In this document: in pieces, positions 966 to 20,371 of the stretch
Layout of the letters: each line of letters opens with the position of its first letter
Position numbering within the stretch: the stretch's first letter is position 1
Source of the DNA: a virus
Reading direction: 5' to 3' (one strand)
Length of the DNA stretch: 20,672 bases
IMG/VR virus record: IMGVR_UViG_3300031997_000083
Span: 1-20,672 of that record
Made by a program: the position numbers and the translations under genes
The notes under the pieces: generated by a model
What the model was told of the DNA's origin: nothing
What the model saw: the letters and a program-made list of their open reading frames with translations, nothing else
The model's database searches: none

Positions 966-3182
966 ATGTCGGGACTGACTCAGCGGTTTCAGCTTTTCAA
1001 GACGGTTGCCGATCTCCACAGCCAGGGCAGGGTCAAGCTCTCGAATGAGGAGCAGCGGCTGATCGAGAGAGAGTCGATGGATCTCATCCGGAAGTCGATG
1101 CTGAATCGGACCGCCGAGAAGGCTCCTCCCGGATTCGAGGGTGTGCTCCAGCAGCTGTCGAAGGCCCCCGACGCGGATTCCGCCTACGGCATCATCGTGG
1201 AGTACCTGAAGTCCCAGGGGGACCTCGGTGGGGCTCCCGAGCCGAAGCCCGGCCTGCCCGGCATGGACAAGGGTCCGGGCATGGGCATGGACAAGGGTCC
1301 GGGCATGGGCATGGGCATGGGCATGGACAAGGGCCCAGGCCCCGGTCTCGACATGGACAAGGGTCCGGGCATGGGTATGGGCATGGACAAGGGTCCGGAG
1401 CCGAAGCCCGGTCTCGGGAAAGGCCCGGAGATGGGCGGCGGCATGGGGAAGAGCCCGGATCACGCTCCGGAAGGTCTCGGCGGCGAGCCCGGGATCATGA
1501 AGGGCAAGCCCTCCGAAGGTCCGATGCACGAGAAGACGGAATCCCCTATGGAGGAGGGTATGGAGCACGGTAAGCCGGCTCCGAAGCCCGAAGGTGGTCC
1601 GGCCCCGAAGCCCGAGTCTACCCCCGGCGAGAAGCCCGAGAGCTTCGGTGGTGGCGAGAAGTCCGAGAAGTCCGAGAAGTCCGAGGGTGGTGAGGACAAG
1701 GACGACGACAAGGGCGGCGAGAAGCCCGAGAAGAAGGACGACAAGGGCGAGGACAAGGGCGAGAAGAAGCCCGAGAAGAAGGACGACAAGGGCGAGGCTC
1801 CCAAGAAGGAGCGCGAGGCCCTGCGTCGTCGTGCCCAGGAGCAGGCCGAGCAGTCGAGGATCAAGAATCTCCAGAAGGAGAAGAAGGACTTCGGCAAAGA
1901 GATCACTTCCGACGAGATGGGACTCGAAGCGACGGAGGGTATGCCGATGTCCAACCCAATGCCTCAGGAGCAGACGAACGTCCGCGCGAAGAAGGTGCGC
2001 GTCCACACGACGCCGTCCGGCACCATCGTCGCCAGCCACATCGACTTCGGTCCGATCTTCCACGCCGTCCCGTCGGAAGCGATCCGGGGCAACGCGGAAG
2101 AGCTGCGCCGCCTCGCGAACCGCGTCTACGGCAAGATCGTGTACGAGGGGTTCATGAAGGCCGCGAAGTTCTGCAACGCGAAGATCATCCGTTCGGCCGG
2201 CATCGATGACGGCGTCGAGCTGAACCACGTCGAGACCGTCGAGCCGAAGACCAAGGGCGTCACCGACGGCGCGGAGAACGTGAACCGCGAGAAGCCCGAG
2301 GGCGAGTCGGACTCCTTGACCACGGATGTCGAGGTCGTCACGCGCGAGAAGCCCTCCATCGAGCAGCCGGATGTTCTGGCGGGTCGCCGCAAGGCGCTCG
2401 CCCGCGCTGCGCTCATCAAGATGAAGCGCCGGCAGGGCGGGGACATCCTGGACCAGGCGGAGAACGTCACGAAGGACCACAAGCCGTCCAAGCCCACCTT
2501 CAACACGGGTGACGACGCCGAGACCAACGCGACGGAGCAGCACGGTGCTCCGGAGGGTCGCGTCATCGACGGCGGGGACAACGTGATCCGCAACGCGCAG
2601 ACGCACTTCCAGAAGCTGTACGCTACGCGGATGGCGAAGAAGGTCGCCGCGGAGAAGGAGGCGTTCATCCGCCGGTTCACCCGGGCGATGCGCCTCGCCG
2701 CGACTCGGATGCTGCTCAACCACGAGGAGCACCCGTTCAAGGCCGCCGCGGTCGACGTCCTCGCGGACAACAGCGGCAGCATCGAGTTCTCGGACGGCCA
2801 GCGCTACACGGGCATGGACGTCGCCGCCGCGGTGGAGCTGACGGAGCTGATCGCTGTCGAGGGCCACAAGGCGTTCCTCGACGCCCTGCTCACGAAGGCG
2901 GCCGACCTCATGCAGAAGGATGATCGGTATCTGGCGGATGCCGAGTCCGATCTCGCCAAGCTCGCGCCGGTTTCGGTTTCGGCCGGCCTCGCGGGCTCCA
3001 AAACGTCTTCTTTCCGCAACCGCTCCGTTTCGAAGAGGCGGGCGGCAGTGGAGGGGAATTTCGAAGTCACGCATGGGACCCCTGCAACCGGTCCTGAAAT
3101 TTCAAAAACAGCTGATCTGCGCGGAGCCCTCGGCGGCGGCACTCTCCTGGGTCGTAGGCTGGAGAGATTGGGCCGTGGGTAG
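966..3182 (+). CDS. Putative prohead scaffold / core protein, low complexity
   Basis: A 738-residue protein with AGGAG (954-958) before its start. Residues ~1-90 are helical. Residues ~98-150 carry five MDKGP units joined by Gly-Met runs. Residues ~200-285 are a highly charged Lys/Glu/Asp/Pro tract. About 290-330 is a basic helix, and the rest is mostly helical with short degenerate DxAENV-type repeats at about 434, 454, 496 and 535. There are no enzyme motifs. Its position between a head protease and the major capsid protein, its high charge and its low complexity fit an internal scaffold that is degraded or expelled during maturation. It is longer than most phage scaffolds, so it may also carry a packaged inner-capsid domain. 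The C-terminal ~60 residues use less biased codons than the middle. Assignment rests on context and composition. Confidence 0.65.
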   Translation: MSGLTQRFQLFKTVADLHSQGRVKLSNEEQRLIERESMDLIRKSMLNRTAEKAPPGFEGVLQQLSKAPDADSAYGIIVEYLKSQGDLGGAPEPKPGLPGMDKGPGMGMDKGPGMGMGMGMDKGPGPGLDMDKGPGMGMGMDKGPEPKPGLGKGPEMGGGMGKSPDHAPEGLGGEPGIMKGKPSEGPMHEKTESPMEEGMEHGKPAPKPEGGPAPKPESTPGEKPESFGGGEKSEKSEKSEGGEDKDDDKGGEKPEKKDDKGEDKGEKKPEKKDDKGEAPKKEREALRRRAQEQAEQSRIKNLQKEKKDFGKEITSDEMGLEATEGMPMSNPMPQEQTNVRAKKVRVHTTPSGTIVASHIDFGPIFHAVPSEAIRGNAEELRRLANRVYGKIVYEGFMKAAKFCNAKIIRSAGIDDGVELNHVETVEPKTKGVTDGAENVNREKPEGESDSLTTDVEVVTREKPSIEQPDVLAGRRKALARAALIKMKRRQGGDILDQAENVTKDHKPSKPTFNTGDDAETNATEQHGAPEGRVIDGGDNVIRNAQTHFQKLYATRMAKKVAAEKEAFIRRFTRAMRLAATRMLLNHEEHPFKAAAVDVLADNSGSIEFSDGQRYTGMDVAAAVELTELIAVEGHKAFLDALLTKAADLMQKDDRYLADAESDLAKLAPVSVSAGLAGSKTSSFRNRSVSKRRAAVEGNFEVTHGTPATGPEISKTADLRGALGGGTLLGRRLERLGRG
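1262..1398 (+). repeat. Degenerate tandem repeat encoding MDKGP/GMGM units
   Basis: Five copies of ATGGACAAGGG(T/C)CC alternate with GGCATG runs inside the scaffold gene. The copies are nearly identical at the DNA level, so the array probably expands and contracts by slippage or recombination. All spacings keep the reading frame. Confidence 0.85.
1721..1796 (+). repeat. Two perfect 31-bp direct repeats in scaffold gene
   Basis: Copies at 1721-1751 and 1766-1796 are identical over 31 bases and offset by 45 bases, a multiple of three. They encode the charged unit KPEKKDDKGE twice. The region around them is made of shorter GAGAAG/GACAAG units. Confidence 0.85.
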
Positions 3183-5373: not shown

Positions 5374-6216
5374 ATGTACCGTACAACAGGATCAGTCCCC
5401 GTTCTGGGTCGTAACGACGAGATCCTGTCGTACACGCATCCCGCCAGAGCAAGAAAATTGGTGGACTCAGGAAGGGCGCGAGTGGCAAACCGCGACCCTT
5501 TCATAATCAAACTGGCGAGAGATCCCAGGGAGGCTAACATGGAAGCAACATCGAGAGTTCCAGTCATCACCAACTTCACGGAGTATTTCCGTGAGGAGCG
5601 GGACGTGTACGTCCAGAACAAGAGCAACACGCAGGTGTCTCTCCAGTTCGAGACGTCGCCGGGTCGTGTCGACTCGCTGCTGATCCCGCGCGACAAGAAG
5701 CCGCTGAACCTCACGCAGATGGTGCCGTTCAAGGCCATCAAGGAGTCGGTCGATCTGCGCAAGATGGTGAACCGGCAGCCGCCGGTTCTCGTCCTCCTCA
5801 CCGAGGAAGAGTACCTCGCGTACTACCAGCTGATCGCGCAGGCGGACAATGCCCCCATCGACAAGGTCATCGCGGAGGCTCAGCAGTACCAGAGGGACCT
5901 CCAGGACAAGCGCGTCTTCACAGCGCCCGAGCCCCGCGGTCGGAAGACTCTGGAGGACACGGCCGAGGATCGGAAGGACGAGCCGGCGGACCCGCAGGAC
6001 AAGGTTACCGCGCGTATCGTGGGCATCTGTAACTCGGTCGGCGACGACGTCTCCGAGAAGGATCGTCTCGCGGCGGGCCCCATGCTGGAGGAGATCAAGG
6101 ACCTCGACGCCGGGCAGCCGCTCACGCGGGCGGACTTGGAGTACATCCAGGGCCACGGCTTCTACAAGAGCGTCAAGAACTGGGCGTTGACGACCCACGC
6201 AGAGCGCTGGAGCTAG
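5374..6216 (+). CDS. Virion-type protein with IscB-like RRXRR/PLMP N-terminal motif
   Basis: A 280-residue reading frame. Residues 8-47 match the RRXRR (PLMP) N-terminal pattern of IscB-family proteins: a VPVLGRNDEIL strand, HPARARKL (22-29), SGRARV (32-37) and DPFIIKL (41-47). No RuvC or HNH nuclease part follows. From Met56 (5539) the protein changes to a beta-rich domain (about 60-120) and then a charged helical tail (145-280), with strongly biased codons like a structural gene. The 5539 ATG has a good AGGGAGG site 5 bases upstream, while the 5374 ATG has only a weak GAGAG. Two products (280 and 225 residues) are therefore possible. Codons in the first 55 residues are less biased (AGA, AGG, TTG, TCA), which suggests a different origin or weak expression. 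The role of the main domain is unknown; it is probably a head or neck protein. Confidence 0.6.
   Translation: MYRTTGSVPVLGRNDEILSYTHPARARKLVDSGRARVANRDPFIIKLARDPREANMEATSRVPVITNFTEYFREERDVYVQNKSNTQVSLQFETSPGRVDSLLIPRDKKPLNLTQMVPFKAIKESVDLRKMVNRQPPVLVLLTEEEYLAYYQLIAQADNAPIDKVIAEAQQYQRDLQDKRVFTAPEPRGRKTLEDTAEDRKDEPADPQDKVTARIVGICNSVGDDVSEKDRLAAGPMLEEIKDLDAGQPLTRADLEYIQGHGFYKSVKNWALTTHAERWS
5527..5541 (+). promoter_or_regulatory. Internal ribosome site and alternative start ATG 5539
   Basis: AGGGAGG (5527-5533) stands 5 bases before an in-frame ATG at 5539. It is much stronger than the site at the 5374 start. The next ~15 codons are A/T-richer, as at other gene starts in this window, which supports initiation here. 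Confidence 0.6.
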
Positions 6217-13034: not shown

Positions 13035-15539
13035 ATGGCAATCAGCATTTCGAAATATGTCGATCCAGGCGTGTACATCGCGGAAGTGATTGTCCCTGGT
13101 GCGATTTCCGTCACTTCTGAGCGCACGCTGGGCATCCTCGCCATCGCTCCGCGCACTCGTCGAAGCGTGGACGAGCCGGTCACCCGTGGGAAGATCTACG
13201 ACGAGACGCTGACGCTGACCGTCGGGTCTCCTCACGTAGGAACCTTGGCGAACACCTCGAACAGGTCCAGGAACAGCGCCCAGATCTACATGAATGGGAA
13301 CCCGCTGGGGCTCTCGGACTGGCAGTTCCTGGCTGCGCGTCTGGTGGGCACCGAGTGGGCCGGCGTGACGGTGGACGTCTCCCTGGCGACCGGCACTCCG
13401 TACTTCACATTGGCTCTCGACGGGAAGCGGGCCGTGACGCTGGACTTCAACACCTTGGTACCTCTGGTCGGCGGTGTTGCTGCGGTTGCGACTCCGACGA
13501 ACATCTGCAACGCCATCAACTACGCTCTGGCGAACGCGCTCGGGCCGTTCTTTTTGATCTACGGTCTGACCTACGCTGCCGTGGCGACCCACGCCGTGGG
13601 TGTGGTGAACGAGATCATCACCCTCACGTCCCCCTCGACAGAGCCTGCTTCCGACGTGAAGGTGTTCATCTCCCCGAACGCGGCGCTCGACGGAGCGTCC
13701 ACGATCTCGACCGCGGCATGGACGCCGACGGTCGGTGCCGGCGTCCAAGCGCCGACGCGCCTCCAGGTGTTCGACGCGGCGTATACGTCGTCTGCCGTCT
13801 ACACTCTGGACTACGTGTCGGTCGACATCCTCACCGATGCTCTCACGAATGCCGGCACCTCGACCCCTCTGTCGGACATCAACTACCTCGGCTCGTACCC
13901 GGGCGGTGTGGACTACACGAAGAACACGGACTACGAAGTTGGCATCGCCAACGATGTCGACTGGGATGTGACGACCTGGTTGCAGGCGACGGCGACCACG
14001 TTGGATTTCGTCGCCTTCCCGCCGACCATCGTGGCGGCCACCAACGACAAGCTCTTGGTGTCCATCAACAACCGCACCCAGGTCCTCGTGACCCTGACCC
14101 CGGGCGCTCCGACGACTCCGGCGATTGTGGCCGCGGACATCAACGCCGCGCTGGCCTCGATTGCGAGTGCGTACGGACCGGAGTTCTCGCACATGGCGGT
14201 CGTCGTGGGCAACACGGTGCGGATCCGGTGCCCGGACGACTTCGAGAACTACCTCCCCGAGAAGGGCGTTTCCAGCTCGATTCAGTTCCGGGCGACCGCT
14301 GCGAACGCCTTCACGACGCTGTTCGGCGCGATCACACTGCCCTACACGGCCCAGGGCACCGGAAAGCGGCCGGCGTTCGGGACGAACTACTACTGCACGT
14401 ACGACTACGTCCGGCCGGCCACGGACTACACGACGGGACACCGCGTGTACGATCCGGATCAGTTGTACCAGTACACGACCAAGCTGACGATGCAGAACTA
14501 CCTGGTCAACAAGCTCTGCGTGGCGGGGGAGATCGCGTTCGAGAACGGCATCTCCTCGATGTACCTCTTCCAGATCAACGATTCGGTGGCCCCCGGCACG
14601 CCGACGCAGCTGGAGATCAACTCCGCGCTCGATGCTGCGAAGGAGTACTCGACCGTCACGGACGTCGTCACCATCGACACTGCGCTCGACACTGCGGTGT
14701 ACCAGATGCTGCACGTCGCGGACCAGTCGTCGATGCTGGAGAAGCACTACCGGCGCGGCTGGTTCGGCATGGCGCGGGGCACGGACGTCGGGGACCCCGA
14801 CACGCCGAACACCTTCGTCTATCGGTCGACCAAGACCTTGCAGCCGGGCAACACCTCTCCGGGCCGCGGGCGTCTGTTCCTGGTCTCTCCGGGTGATGCG
14901 ACTCGCACCATCAAGCTCGATACGAGTCAGGAGATCGATCTCAACGTGGATGGCACCTACATCGCGGTCGCCGTCGCGTCGGTCTACACGGCTCTTCCGA
15001 GCCCCTCGTCGGCGCTCATCGGGAAGTTCATCACCGGCTTCAAGACCGAGGGCTTCGGGACGTACCTCCGCGGCGAGCGCCACACTCTGGCGGACAAGGG
15101 TGTCCTCGTCGTCACGCTCGATGCCGGCCGGCTGGTCCTGCTCGATCCGATCTCCACCGAGGCCGGCGGTGCCAAGGTGGTGCAGTTCGAGGAGCCGGCC
15201 TCCAGCGCCCAGAAGGACGCGGTCACGAAGACCGTCGACACGCTGCTCGCGGGCAACGTCATCGGTGTGGTGCCAGACGACCTGAGCGACTTCATTTCGG
15301 ACTGCAAGAAGTGGATTTTGCTCGGCATCACGGCGAACATAAATAACGGCTCGATTGCGGCTTACCGCGACCAGTCGGGCCTGCCGAGGGACATCGACGC
15401 CACGACGGACATCGTGGTGTACCAGTCCACCACGGACCCGAGGACGTTCTACTTCAAATATTGGTACAATTTGAAATATCCCGCGAAGCGATTCTTCGGT
15501 GAGTACTCGGTTGATAACCCGTTCTTCAGCCCCGCCTAG
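13035..15539 (+). CDS. Contractile tail sheath protein
   Basis: An 834-residue protein. The start ISKYVDPGVYIAEV and the following RTLGILAIAPRTRR are typical of contractile tail sheath N-termini. The end, YFKYWYNLKYPAKRFFGEYSVDNPF, fits the C-terminal sheath domain that wraps neighbouring subunits. Between them lie two copies of a beta-alpha insertion module (about 152-222 and 364-432), which make the protein longer than most sheaths (usually about 450-660 residues). Residues ~520-720 correspond to the conserved core. The sheath surrounds the tube and contracts during injection. Codons are strongly biased, fitting a high-copy protein, and it has its own promoter and a strong ribosome site. 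It is followed 25 bases later by the tube gene. Confidence 0.88.
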   Translation: MAISISKYVDPGVYIAEVIVPGAISVTSERTLGILAIAPRTRRSVDEPVTRGKIYDETLTLTVGSPHVGTLANTSNRSRNSAQIYMNGNPLGLSDWQFLAARLVGTEWAGVTVDVSLATGTPYFTLALDGKRAVTLDFNTLVPLVGGVAAVATPTNICNAINYALANALGPFFLIYGLTYAAVATHAVGVVNEIITLTSPSTEPASDVKVFISPNAALDGASTISTAAWTPTVGAGVQAPTRLQVFDAAYTSSAVYTLDYVSVDILTDALTNAGTSTPLSDINYLGSYPGGVDYTKNTDYEVGIANDVDWDVTTWLQATATTLDFVAFPPTIVAATNDKLLVSINNRTQVLVTLTPGAPTTPAIVAADINAALASIASAYGPEFSHMAVVVGNTVRIRCPDDFENYLPEKGVSSSIQFRATAANAFTTLFGAITLPYTAQGTGKRPAFGTNYYCTYDYVRPATDYTTGHRVYDPDQLYQYTTKLTMQNYLVNKLCVAGEIAFENGISSMYLFQINDSVAPGTPTQLEINSALDAAKEYSTVTDVVTIDTALDTAVYQMLHVADQSSMLEKHYRRGWFGMARGTDVGDPDTPNTFVYRSTKTLQPGNTSPGRGRLFLVSPGDATRTIKLDTSQEIDLNVDGTYIAVAVASVYTALPSPSSALIGKFITGFKTEGFGTYLRGERHTLADKGVLVVTLDAGRLVLLDPISTEAGGAKVVQFEEPASSAQKDAVTKTVDTLLAGNVIGVVPDDLSDFISDCKKWILLGITANINNGSIAAYRDQSGLPRDIDATTDIVVYQSTTDPRTFYFKYWYNLKYPAKRFFGEYSVDNPFFSPA

Positions 15540-15564
15540 CAGGGGTAGGGGAGGAGGATAGCAG

Positions 15565-16011
15565 ATGCCAGTTCCGTACACAGGAATTCGTACTAGCCAT
15601 GCGATCTCCATCCGCGTGGGTAGCACCACCATCGGCCAGATCCAGACCTGGGCTCCGAACCAGTCGCGGACCATCACGCCGGCCTACGAGCTGCGCTCTG
15701 AGACTTCTGGAGAGGTGACAGAGAACGTTCCGGGCAACATCACGGGTCTGACGATCCAGGTGAGCCGCTACGACTTGTTCACTTCCAAGATGGAGGAGGT
15801 GTGGGGTACCTCGAAGGCGCTGTGGATGCTTTCGAGCCAGCTCATCCCCCTCACCGTCGAGGAGAAGTGGCGCAATCCGAACAACGTCGTCGAGAAGTTC
15901 GTCTACGAGGGCTGCTGGTTCTCTCAGCTTGGGCGCAACATGCAGGCGCAGGGTGACAGGATCGTGCTCGTCAACGCCACCCTCGCCTACGTCAAGTGCC
16001 GCCCATACTAG
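15565..16011 (+). CDS. Tail tube protein 1 (major tube)
   Basis: A 148-residue protein directly after the sheath, the normal place and size for a myophage tail tube. Strong GAGGAGG site (15551-15557) 7 bases before ATG. Motifs shared with the next gene product are RTSHAI, VSRYDLFTSKMEEVWG, LTVEEKW, GCWF..LGR and QAQGDR.VLVNATL.YVK. The fold would be the beta-barrel ring of phage tail tubes. Codons are strongly biased. It stacks as hexameric rings inside the sheath and guides DNA. Confidence 0.82.
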   Translation: MPVPYTGIRTSHAISIRVGSTTIGQIQTWAPNQSRTITPAYELRSETSGEVTENVPGNITGLTIQVSRYDLFTSKMEEVWGTSKALWMLSSQLIPLTVEEKWRNPNNVVEKFVYEGCWFSQLGRNMQAQGDRIVLVNATLAYVKCRPY

Positions 16012-16017
16012 AAACCC

Positions 16018-16623
16018 ATGCCTGTACCGCGCACTGATCTCCGTACAAGCCATGCCATAACGCTTCGTGCAGCGGATACAACCATCGGGCGGATCCAGAG
16101 CTGGGGACCTTCGCAAGGCAGAGACGTCAAGCTCAAGTTCGAGATCAACGCGGTAGGAACTGGGTCACCTATCGAAGCGGTTCCAGGGGTCATGACTTCC
16201 CAGACTCTTACGGTGTCTAGATACGATCTCTACACCCAGAAGATGGAAGAGATCTGGGGGATGCCGAAGCCGCTGTGGGCATTGACCGATCAGCACAACC
16301 CTATCGACATCGAAGAGAAGTGGATCAAATTCGGAACGAAGGAGAAACCGTTGATCCCGGGGCTGGAGAAGTTCCAGACTTCTTCCTTGCTGGACAAGGT
16401 AGGATCGACGAAGTTCGGTAAAGCCCTGGGGATTGGAACTGCGAACGAGCTTGAAGGGATTGACATCGGGCGTGCCGGCGCGGGCCAGGAGATCTCGGTT
16501 GAGAAGAACTGGTACTCGGGCTGCTGGTTTACGAGCTTGGGTCGTGTTGTGCAGGCTCAGGGAGACCGTTTGGTGCTCGTAAACGCTACTTTGGTGTATG
16601 TGAAGATGCGACGGTTGATGTAG
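16018..16623 (+). CDS. Tail tube protein 2, paralog with 52-residue insert
   Basis: A 201-residue paralog of the preceding tube protein, similar along its whole length. Trp102 is in the same place in both. Between it and the shared GCWF motif there are 65 residues here and 13 in tube 1, so an insert of about 52 residues (roughly 108-160, Gly/Lys-rich) has been added or lost. It starts six bases after tube 1 with no clear ribosome site and uses less biased codons, so it is probably made in lower amounts. It could be a tube-initiating ring, a baseplate-proximal tube protein or a terminator-side ring. It is less likely to be an unused copy because the frame is intact. Confidence 0.75.
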   Translation: MPVPRTDLRTSHAITLRAADTTIGRIQSWGPSQGRDVKLKFEINAVGTGSPIEAVPGVMTSQTLTVSRYDLYTQKMEEIWGMPKPLWALTDQHNPIDIEEKWIKFGTKEKPLIPGLEKFQTSSLLDKVGSTKFGKALGIGTANELEGIDIGRAGAGQEISVEKNWYSGCWFTSLGRVVQAQGDRLVLVNATLVYVKMRRLM

Positions 16624-16678
16624 AGTTCGTCATCGACAAAACACCCCGGAAACCCCGGGAGAAGGGAGCGAAAGCGCC

Positions 16679-17206
16679 ATGTCGACGGACAATCCGAAAA
16701 GAATCTTGGACGATCTCGCGAAGGAACTCGACGGCGAGTGCTTGGAGGAGACGTTCACTTGGAAGGGCCTGGAAATCAAGATTCGACTCCTGAACGAAGA
16801 GGAGTCGAACTGGAGGAACGGCTTCGTGAACATGGGGAGCGGCTTGGCGACGATCACGTCATGGAGGCTCCCGACCCTCGCCATTGGAATCCGCGAGATC
16901 GGTGGACTCCCAGTGTTCGATTTCTTCCGCGGGGAGTGGGAGAGCACTGAGGAGGGTCGTAATGTGCTGCGTCTGGTCGAGGGTCGCGGTGCTCACAGCA
17001 TGAAATACTTCTCGGCGGAGCATCTGATGCAGTATCTCGGGAGCCGGCCCCCGGAGGCTCTGGAGGACCTGTGGAAGTATTGGAAGATGCTCGAAGACCG
17101 CCGCGAGGAGGTTCAGGGCAACATAAAAAAATCCTCAGGGGTGGATTCGGAGAAGGGCACGAAGCCCACTGGGACCGAGTCTACCCCATCTGGAGAAGGA
17201 CAGTAG
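16679..17206 (+). CDS. Tail assembly chaperone, short (unshifted) form
   Basis: A 175-residue protein; GGGAG (16664-16668) upstream. It lies between the tube and the tape measure genes, where tailed phages keep a chaperone pair made by programmed frameshifting. Residues 1-140 hold short strands then helices (EETFTWKGLEIKIRLLNEEE, WRLPTLAIGIREI, EALEDLWKYWKMLED). The last ~25 residues are a disordered Ser/Gly/Thr/Glu tail that begins at the slippery site. It would bind the tape measure protein and tube subunits during tail assembly and is not expected in the mature virion. Confidence 0.75.
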   Translation: MSTDNPKRILDDLAKELDGECLEETFTWKGLEIKIRLLNEEESNWRNGFVNMGSGLATITSWRLPTLAIGIREIGGLPVFDFFRGEWESTEEGRNVLRLVEGRGAHSMKYFSAEHLMQYLGSRPPEALEDLWKYWKMLEDRREEVQGNIKKSSGVDSEKGTKPTGTESTPSGEGQ

Positions 17207-17944: not shown

Positions 17945-20371
17945 ATGACCGATGTGACCCAATACCTCCTGCGATGGGACTTCGATCAGTTCCGTGATCA
18001 GATCTCGGACGTTTCTGCATCGTATACCAAGTTCGGAGCTTCGATCAGGGAGCTGGTAGGGGCCGCTTCTACCGATCTGTCCTTGTTGCAGCAGAAGGCG
18101 GCCCAGGTCACAACCACCCTCGCCGCCATGAACCCCGAGCTGGAGAAGTCCCTTCATGGGATCCGGGAGAGCACCGGCTCCGTGAACCAGCTCATGGAGT
18201 CCATCGCTCAGAACAGCACCAAGATTTCCGGTGACGTTTCTAGGATGGCTGCTTCCGGGGCCTCTTCGAAAGGCGTGGGGGGTCCTGAGCTGGAGAAGGC
18301 CAGGTCACAGGTCACTATCATCTTGGAGGGGGCTGCCTTTGCGAATGCTTCTGTGGAGCTTGCTCAAAGCAACGCTGGTGAGGTTATCAGGGTGGTCCAG
18401 GACGCTGACAAGAAGTCAGCGGATGATGTTACTCGCATACAGAAGTATTTGCAGTCGGAGATGAATGCCGCAGCCAGCAGGGTCAAGGAGGTAGCCGGCC
18501 ACGTTCCTGGAGGGGTTCTTACAAGTGGGCTCATCGGCGGTGCCCTGGGTGCCATGATTTTGGGTGTCACTGAGAAGGATCGAAAGAAGGCTCAGTTCGG
18601 AGAGATGTTGAATGTAGTTGAGGCTACTGGGGAGGCGTTGACCTCTGAAGCCTCCAGAAAGGCTGTTGGGTGGTTCTCTTCGTTCCAGGAAACAGCTCAG
18701 TGGTTCTACGGGATCGCCAAGGAAGAAACCCAGCAGGTCGTCAAAGCCTTGGTGGACGCGGGATACCGGTCCAAGGACATCATTGCGTCTTTCGACAGCT
18801 CTTTGAAGTTCGTGGGCCAGAACGTCGGTATCGCCACCATCGCTCTGGACAAGCACTTCAACTTGGATACCGGCACCTCGATGACCAACGTCATCAAGAT
18901 CACGACCGCCCTGGGTGAGTCCTTGCAGAGCGCTACGGACAAGTACATCAAGCTCGGATTCGCCGGCCAGCGCAGCGCGATGGGCATCAGCAAGTTCACG
19001 GACGCCGTGATCTCGGGCGCTTCCGCGATGCAGCAGTACGGGGTGGACATCGAAGACGTTGCGGATCTCATGGGCAAGATCCAGAAGCACTATGAGGCCA
19101 TGGGTTTGAGCCCACAGTACGCGGGGGCTCAGGCTACCCAGGTGGTCAATGGGATCTCTCAAGGCATGGCGAGCATGAGCCCCAGCATGAAGGCTGTGCT
19201 GGCTCAGCAGATGTTCCCGGAGCTGACCGCGTTGGATGCCCTTCAGAAGTGGGAGGACGGCTTCAAGAGGGTTGCTGAGGGCGGGGGCGACACCTTCGTG
19301 ACCCAGGCCACGGTTCTGATGCGCAACTGGGCCGCGGAGGGTGGCCGTAGCAGGTCTCAGGCGATCAGGATCATGGAGTACAACGGCATCGACAATCGGA
19401 CCGCGGCGACGTTGTACGATCTTGGGGACAAACTCTCCAAGACCAACAAGCTCTCTGAGCTGACGAAGGATGAGCAGCACCGGTTGAAAACGGCGCTGGG
19501 TGTGGAGAGCGAAAAGGTCTCTGACTTGGCGAAGCTCACGAGAGATCTCACCAACGCGGTTGCGCTCATAGGTCAGGGACTTCTGAAGATTCTGGCTGAC
19601 TTGGTGGGTGTCATCATTCTCGGGATCAAGATGCTCCCCCTTCAGATTATGGCTGCGCTCCCGGGTGGTGGGGCAGATGAGAAAGCGGCTCTTAAAAAGG
19701 GCGATGCGATGTTCGATGCCCTGATCCTTAGCATGGGATCTGGAGTTTCTGATATTTCGAAAGGTCTCAAGGACGCTGCCGAAGCTACTGGAAAAGAGTT
19801 CAAGGATGATTTCAAACCAGTTCTCGATGTTCTAGGTTGGAAAGTGCCCACCCAAGGGGGAGCGGATACCTCATACAATCCTTTTAGTGAGGTATCAAAG
19901 GCGAATTATTCGGAGTTGGGGGGTGTAGCGGTAGAAATAGCCACGGATTCGGCACTCCGACGCCAGATGTCTTTCCAAAGCTCTATGAATGATCTTGATA
20001 ACATGGTCGCTGCTTCTGAAAACCGAGTTGCAGAGCTGCAAAAGAGGATGGAGTACCTTACGGGTGGTGGCGTCATGGGGGCGAGGCGTGCTATGCAAGG
20101 TCTTCCTCAAGGAGCGAAATCTGAGATTGATTCTTTGCAGCAGCAAATAGACCAGGCTAAGTTTCAACTCGAAGGGGATCGTATAATCCGAGAGGATGGG
20201 CAGAAAAATCTGGAGGAGAGGGAAAAGGAAATGTACCGACAGGGTAAGGACGCTCCCGGTACGACACCTACGCCCATTCAAGTAATACTGCCAGCCGGAG
20301 AGACTGCTGGCGCGCGAATAAATCAACAGGAAAATATACTGACATCTGGTTATGCAGGTGTTACGGGTTAG
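17945..20371 (+). CDS. Tail tape measure protein
   Basis: An 808-residue mostly helical protein directly after the chaperone pair, as tape measures are. Two hydrophobic segments are visible at about 187-208 (Gly-rich) and 538-568; such segments are thought to insert in the host membrane during injection. Long amphipathic helices with Gln/Ala/Lys/Glu fill the rest, with a coiled coil near 690-770. No peptidase or lysozyme motif is seen. It sets tail length and is held inside the tube. Start ATG one base after the chaperone stop, without a clear ribosome site, hence coupled. From about 19860 the codons become A/T-richer to the end. The N-terminal 50 residues resemble the start of the next gene. 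Confidence 0.8.
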   Translation: MTDVTQYLLRWDFDQFRDQISDVSASYTKFGASIRELVGAASTDLSLLQQKAAQVTTTLAAMNPELEKSLHGIRESTGSVNQLMESIAQNSTKISGDVSRMAASGASSKGVGGPELEKARSQVTIILEGAAFANASVELAQSNAGEVIRVVQDADKKSADDVTRIQKYLQSEMNAAASRVKEVAGHVPGGVLTSGLIGGALGAMILGVTEKDRKKAQFGEMLNVVEATGEALTSEASRKAVGWFSSFQETAQWFYGIAKEETQQVVKALVDAGYRSKDIIASFDSSLKFVGQNVGIATIALDKHFNLDTGTSMTNVIKITTALGESLQSATDKYIKLGFAGQRSAMGISKFTDAVISGASAMQQYGVDIEDVADLMGKIQKHYEAMGLSPQYAGAQATQVVNGISQGMASMSPSMKAVLAQQMFPELTALDALQKWEDGFKRVAEGGGDTFVTQATVLMRNWAAEGGRSRSQAIRIMEYNGIDNRTAATLYDLGDKLSKTNKLSELTKDEQHRLKTALGVESEKVSDLAKLTRDLTNAVALIGQGLLKILADLVGVIILGIKMLPLQIMAALPGGGADEKAALKKGDAMFDALILSMGSGVSDISKGLKDAAEATGKEFKDDFKPVLDVLGWKVPTQGGADTSYNPFSEVSKANYSELGGVAVEIATDSALRRQMSFQSSMNDLDNMVAASENRVAELQKRMEYLTGGGVMGARRAMQGLPQGAKSEIDSLQQQIDQAKFQLEGDRIIREDGQKNLEEREKEMYRQGKDAPGTTPTPIQVILPAGETAGARINQQENILTSGYAGVTG

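Follow-up and report, generated by a model that had tools for sequence, protein, structure and literature searches.

A tandem pair of probable tail tube genes in a contractile-tailed phage: the second copy carries a conserved loop insert and may form a specialised tube ring

The DNA analysed here, called the window, is a virus record of 20,672 bases in which the tail genes follow one another on the plus strand. The tail sheath gene (13035-15539, 834 aa) is recognised by its homology to the sheath protein of phage G, gp178. A profile of 20 members of the sheath family aligns with gp178 with an hhalign probability of 99.2% (E 3.3e-19), and one of the 20 members matches PF04984, Phage_sheath_1, at 1.4e-5; the sheath has no match among PDB sequences. 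Because the gene upstream of the tube genes is homologous to the phage G sheath, the tail is contractile. Two tube genes come next. Copy 1 (15565-16011) encodes 148 aa and is the probable major tail tube protein, and copy 2 (16018-16623) encodes 201 aa and is probably a low-copy specialised tube ring protein. The six bases between the stop of copy 1 and the start of copy 2 (16012-16017) hold no Shine-Dalgarno sequence. A probable tail assembly chaperone of 175 aa, the zero-frame product (16679-17206), lies between the tube genes and the tape measure gene, in the order of gp181/182 of phage G. Its reading frame contains the slippery heptamer A AAA AAA at 17125-17131, and an overlapping -1 frame is open to 17943; together they make a programmed frameshift of the tail assembly chaperones probable. 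The probable tape measure protein (17945-20371, 808 aa) is named from its position and length, and it has no protein-family match above noise.

Two genes farther upstream are recorded as side observations. A 280-aa protein of the capsid region (5374-6216) has at its N-terminus an RRXRR domain that scores above the cut-off (PF14239, E 1.3e-8) and also occurs in HNH/IscB-type proteins. A large low-complexity protein made of Met/Gly/Asp/Lys/Pro repeats is encoded at 966-3182; its neighbours are the genes of the maturation protease and the major head protein, one on each side.

Both tube reading frames are intact, and the proteins are homologous over their full lengths, as an earlier note on this DNA had claimed. 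Copy 2 is 51% identical to copy 1 over residues 1-104 (E 4.7e-34) and 68% identical over the C-terminal 41 residues (E 1.4e-14), a likeness far above chance. Between these regions, from Trp102 to the GCWF motif, copy 2 has 65 residues (16324-16518) in the place of 13 in copy 1, which agrees with the 52-residue insert described in that note.

The name tail tube was first given to the pair by a reader of the bare sequence. Profile searches add little to it: neither protein matches Pfam at E<=0.1 or NCBIfam, and an hmmsearch of the tube alignment (A3) against PDB sequences returned unrelated chains only, at E 0.8 and worse. With no profile match in the PDB, the two ties of these proteins to tubes are fold comparison and homology to phage G. 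The latter is seen in a tblastn match to gp180 (E 2e-4); both copies also match phrog_985, 'virion structural protein' (copy 1, E 7.6e-8; copy 2, E 1.1e-4). AlphaFold2 models were built on 61-row alignments and have a mean pLDDT of 75.0 for copy 1 and 71.9 for copy 2. The copy 1 model matches chain 8q01_G of phage 812 (Foldseek E 2.9e-6; VIA-align Z 11.4, rmsd 2.9, 135 residues aligned), and many phage and injection-system tubes are among its matches. The matches of the copy 2 model are weaker (Foldseek E 2.6e-4 to 6j0n_n, a PVC baseplate chain) and tied at the top; its structural alignments reach Z 9.2 at best (rmsd 3.8, 118 aligned), and that with 6j0n_n has Z 8.4 (rmsd 3.7, 129 aligned). 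Both copies thus have the tube fold as predicted models. Neck chains (8q01, 9mu3) occur among the fold matches as well, and the fold has no power to tell a neck ring apart. The gene order, with the sheath gene upstream and the slippery-site overlap and a long reading frame downstream, is that of a tail tube locus, and the predicted folds, this order and the homology to gp180 together support the tail tube identity of both copies.

In the AlphaFold2 models the order of elements is beta1, beta2, beta3, helix, beta4, insert, beta5, beta6, beta7. The insert lies between the strands 96-107 and 157-178 and by this order replaces the loop beta4-beta5, so that the fixed position on the barrel proposed for it earlier holds in the predicted models. 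Residues 117-152 of copy 2 have a pLDDT below 50, and the model therefore gives no readable contacts for the insert. According to PMC8718954, the loop beta4-beta5.1 sticks out to the exterior in SPP1 and 80alpha, the loop beta4-beta5 is a main contributor to the tube-sheath interface of contractile tails, and outer C-terminal Ig domains are said to clash with a sheath. By analogy with this description of the loop, the insert should face outward.

Purifying selection keeps the insert. In the three closest comparisons (among the window, L030 and L032) its dN/dS is 0.056-0.10, and that of the copy 2 core is 0.05-0.08. Between the window and L033 the value for the insert is 0.38, and in distant pairs the synonymous sites are near saturation. 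Gly and Ala make up 0.15-0.47 of the second-copy segments, against 0.11 in copy 1. A membrane-active helix in the insert was considered and rejected, as the maximum hydrophobic moment exceeded that of shuffled sequences (p<=0.05) in one of 14 second-copy segments. Only two positions distinguish copies 1 and 2 as sub-types across nine genomes, L43I and V51P in the beta2-beta3 loop, which are too few to infer ring interfaces.

The two genes differ in their expression signals. Copy 1 is preceded by a strong Shine-Dalgarno sequence, GGAGGAGG (15550-15557), whose duplex with the anti-Shine-Dalgarno has an energy of -12.1 kcal/mol; copy 2 has no recognisable ribosome site (+0.2 kcal/mol). Measured against the capsid and sheath genes, the codon adaptation index is 0.627 for copy 1 and 0.425 for copy 2, the latter at the level of the tape measure gene (0.418). 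The weak ribosome site and weaker codon bias that had been noted for copy 2 are thus borne out in the window. Across the 23 distinct multi-copy loci, the stronger Shine-Dalgarno sequence belongs to copy 1 in 21 (sign test 6.6e-5, relatedness of the loci ignored). In the clade of the window the contrast is found in all nine genomes (-11.3 to -12.1 against -4.5 to +0.4); outside the clade several pairs show a small contrast, and L028 and L069 show the opposite one. By the sheath-based codon index copy 1 exceeds copy 2 at 20 of the 23 loci, mostly by little; the gap is clear only in the window and L030, and it is reversed in L031, L049 and L069. In the window's clade copy 2 starts 3-18 nt past the stop of copy 1, a distance at which translational coupling could feed copy 2 without a ribosome site of its own. 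No sigma-70-like promoter was found from 15400 to 16800 of the window. Synonymous divergence between the window and L030 is 0.21 for copy 1 and 0.72 for copy 2 in the same two genomes, and the low value for copy 1 could be due either to codon selection or to local recombination of copy 1.

Viral contigs were scanned for relatives, which yielded sets of 12, 12, 42 and 5 loci. When L015, Rctr197k, phage G and the window are added to the set of 42, there are 46 loci with 78 tube reading frames, 65 of them distinct; the remaining loci of the other three sets repeat contigs already included. One tube gene is present in 19 of the 46 loci, two in 22 and three in 5 (L054, L055, L056, L057 and L063). 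Of 26 records searched whole, all 19 single-copy records gave one tube match each; virus records may be fragments, and that of L015 ends about 510 bases past its tube gene. At 10 of the 19 single-copy loci the reading frames between the tube and tape measure genes were also searched for a second tube, with the window as a control, and none scored better than E 1 against the tube profile. The second copy is therefore optional across the family. The third copies form a long-branched clade of their own (support 100/100), and a scan with their alignment (A4) found only the five three-copy loci already known.

Within the clade of the window, the pair and the insert are kept in all nine distinct genomes. 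The insert, whose conservation the earlier note proposed to check, is kept in all nine under purifying selection, and decayed second copies, which would have spoken against that note, were looked for among relatives and none was found, the frames being open. Across the family, 15 of the 23 distinct second copies have an insert of at least 39 residues; none of 37 distinct first or single copies and none of five third copies has one. The segment at the insert site measures 39-82 residues in these 15 second copies, 24 in one and 13-17 in seven, compared with 12-19 in the first or single copies and 13 in the five third copies. In six of the eight second copies that lack the long insert, the C-terminal tail is extended to 28-38 residues; first or single copies have 13-18 there, except for the longer phage G copy, with 41.

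Two further observations on relatives stand apart from the tube genes. In the single-tube relatives L048, L053 and L059, a reading frame that looks by eye like a lipoprotein, with a signal-peptide-like start and a Cys, lies between the tube and chaperone genes (L048:6393-6929, L053:6348-6899, L059:6392-6907). L077 (QMZE01000009.1), a relative with 84% identity in copy 1, lies on a contig of 17,766 bases that was deposited as part of an Archaeoglobales MAG; the placement either stems from misbinning or hints at an archaeal host.

A tree of the 65 distinct tube reading frames was built without the insert columns; its deep branches are weak, with 22 of 62 open. In the window's clade all nine second copies fall together with support of 100/99, which indicates that the insert-bearing copy predates the radiation of these nine lineages; whether the duplication is old was a question that the earlier note had put to a phylogeny. 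By parsimony the insert needs about four gains (four changes) on the tree. A single ancient duplication with one gain of the insert was rejected: one clade of the 15 insert-bearing second copies is rejected (p-AU 5.9e-7), and so is one of 22 second copies with phage G left out (p-AU 1.5e-6), both groups having been chosen after the tree was seen. A single clade of copies 1 and 2 of the window's clade is absent from the tree and is not rejected by the test (p-AU 0.288). Gene conversion between tandem copies could yield the same picture, and L052 c1/c2/L046 could be such a case. A wider reading of this history is tentative, and we consider it rather doubtful: that tandem tube duplication has been repeated across widespread uncultured contractile phages, that second copies have independently gained an outward insert in this one loop, or else an extended C-terminal tail, and have in each case become a ring of their own that joins the tube to the sheath at one tail end, and that some lineages have a third, separately diverged ring.

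A separate candidate for the initiator of the tube is encoded in L030, a contig of 211,982 bases. Its 251-aa protein, whose gene lies downstream of the tape measure gene and before a baseplate wedge gene, is weakly similar to the Pfam model PF23980, named 'putative phage tail tube initiator', with an E of 0.028 and 14.5 bits, under the curated cut-off of 27. In its family 9 of 21 members match PF23980 at E<=0.1, the best at 2.5e-5. Of 26 records searched, all but that of phage G contain the family, whether they have one tube copy, two or three; outside the L030 contig it was scored for presence only. The candidate was rejected as a tube paralog (hhalign of A5 vs A3, probability 0.07%), and its comparison with PDB sequences gave nothing relevant. 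If the label is right, the tube is initiated independently of copy 2, which is then an extra ring. Since the candidate is also found in single-copy relatives, this ring is probably an optional addition.

The tandem pair with its insert is real and conserved. The explanation of it that we favour, with a probability of roughly 0.55, is that copy 1 is the major tube protein, which would stack into the trunk of the contractile tail, and that copy 2 is a diverged duplicate, produced in smaller amount, which would form one or a few specialised rings with the same barrel. The enlarged beta4-beta5 loop of copy 2 would bind a partner to which the trunk rings do not bind, the candidates being the sheath end, the baseplate or the neck. 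We infer for copy 2 a hexameric ring, a low copy number, a terminal position and an outward projection of the loop towards this partner. By analogy the baseplate side may be slightly ahead of the neck side, because there are precedents of tube-like rings at the baseplate (gp48/gp54, Afp5/Alg5). Of the specialised low-copy ring proposed in the earlier note, the low-expression signals that speak for it are largely conserved; the 19 of 46 loci that are single-copy, and the PF23980-like family present in such relatives as well, speak against one form of it, a simple baseplate initiator.

Alternatively, both proteins may build the trunk, in alternating rings or hetero-hexamers, with the insert as a sheath-facing spacer along the tail. 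The genes are adjacent and likely co-transcribed, with gaps short enough for possible translational coupling, and the homologous Hcp fold is described as forming hetero-hexameric rings (Hcp2-Hcp3 of B. fragilis, PDB 9vne); for phage G, both candidates forming the tube is a possibility left open by the authors (PMC8570332). However, the difference in ribosome-site strength is largely conserved, the codon bias of copy 2 resembles that of the tape measure gene, and single-copy relatives presumably build their tails from one tube protein. A sheath is expected to leave no room for bulky additions on the outside of the tube (PMC8718954), and 52 extra residues in each trunk ring seem improbable given both this clash and the sheath contact of the beta4-beta5 loop. 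We regard such a mixed trunk as unlikely.

It is still less likely that copy 2 is itself the tube initiator on the hub, in the manner of gp54 or Afp5. The initiator rings Alg5 and Alg7 of AlgoCIS share the tube fold (PMC8894135), which copy 2 has as a predicted model, and PVC baseplate chains are among its best Foldseek matches; but 6j0n_n also matches copy 1, at E 7.0e-6, and this match does not discriminate between the copies. An initiator or adaptor should be present in every member of the family, whereas copy 2 is absent from the single-copy loci, and the PF23980-like family is found whatever the number of tube genes. As T4 and AlgoCIS each have two such rings, copy 2 and the initiator candidate could coexist. 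That copy 2 is not a part of the tail, but an assembly factor or a decoy against a defence of the DSR2 type that senses tail tubes, is very improbable: its predicted expression is low, tube proteins are bound by such defences and DSR2-tail tube complexes are among its structural matches, but these matches reflect the common tube fold, the barrel and C-terminal strands are under purifying selection, and both phage G paralogs are, by their annotation, 'virion structural protein'.

The reading of copy 2 as a specialised ring predicts that it is present at a low copy number in the virion. The relatives, whose tube genes number from one to three, provide a natural comparison, and the apparently independent inserts that mark second copies at one outward loop indicate the region to examine.

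The closest known arrangement is that of Bacillus phage G, in which gp179 and gp180, an adjacent tube-family pair, follow the sheath gene and precede the frameshifted chaperones and then the tape measure. The sheath and tube proteins are homologous to those of the window. The identity is weak, however, and the phage G pair has no long beta4-beta5 insert (18 and 17 residues at this site); the longer copy comes first, and its extra residues lie at the C-terminus and ahead of beta4. On the tree the two form a group by themselves, and their duplication therefore looks separate. In the phage G study it is described as unclear whether both candidates form the tube or one binds the neck or baseplate (PMC8570332), and in the literature searched that paper is the only direct precedent for phages with a second tail tube protein or a hetero tube. 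Genes 067/068 of Rctr197k (KX853510.1, annotated as hypothetical) encode an insert-free copy and, after it, one in which a segment of 74 residues occupies the insert site of the window's copy 2. Unlike that of the window, this segment is Gly/Ala-rich (47%) and has no recognisable sequence similarity to the insert, and the ribosome site of its copy 2 is as good as that of copy 1. Between the sheath gene and tube copy 1 of Rctr197k there is also a gene (L028:7220-7951) with a Cys-pair and HNH-like motifs, noted by eye, near an annotated putative homing endonuclease.

In Afp, Pvc and Alg systems and in T4, the second tube-like gene is not known to adjoin the main tube gene. In the window's family it is adjacent and optional, and a separate initiator candidate is present. 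The likeness lies in the pairing of a high-copy tube protein with low-copy baseplate rings of tube fold or at the tube junction, as described for Afp1/Afp5, Pvc1/Pvc5, Alg1/Alg5 and T4 gp19 with gp48/gp54 (PMC8894135, PMC3004832). In T4, 138 copies of gp19 are given against 6 of gp48 and 6 of gp54 (PMC3004832), and in AlgoCIS two proteins that have the tube barrel, Alg5 and Alg7, attach the tube (PMC8894135). Extra outward loops or domains on tubes are described for the loop beta4-beta5.1 of SPP1 and 80alpha and for the inserted domain 2 of YSD1 (PMC8718954), but in these systems it is the major tube protein that carries the addition, and a sheath is absent from their tails. Specialised tube rings are thus already known, and what is less familiar is a second tube gene that is adjacent, optional and repeatedly modified.
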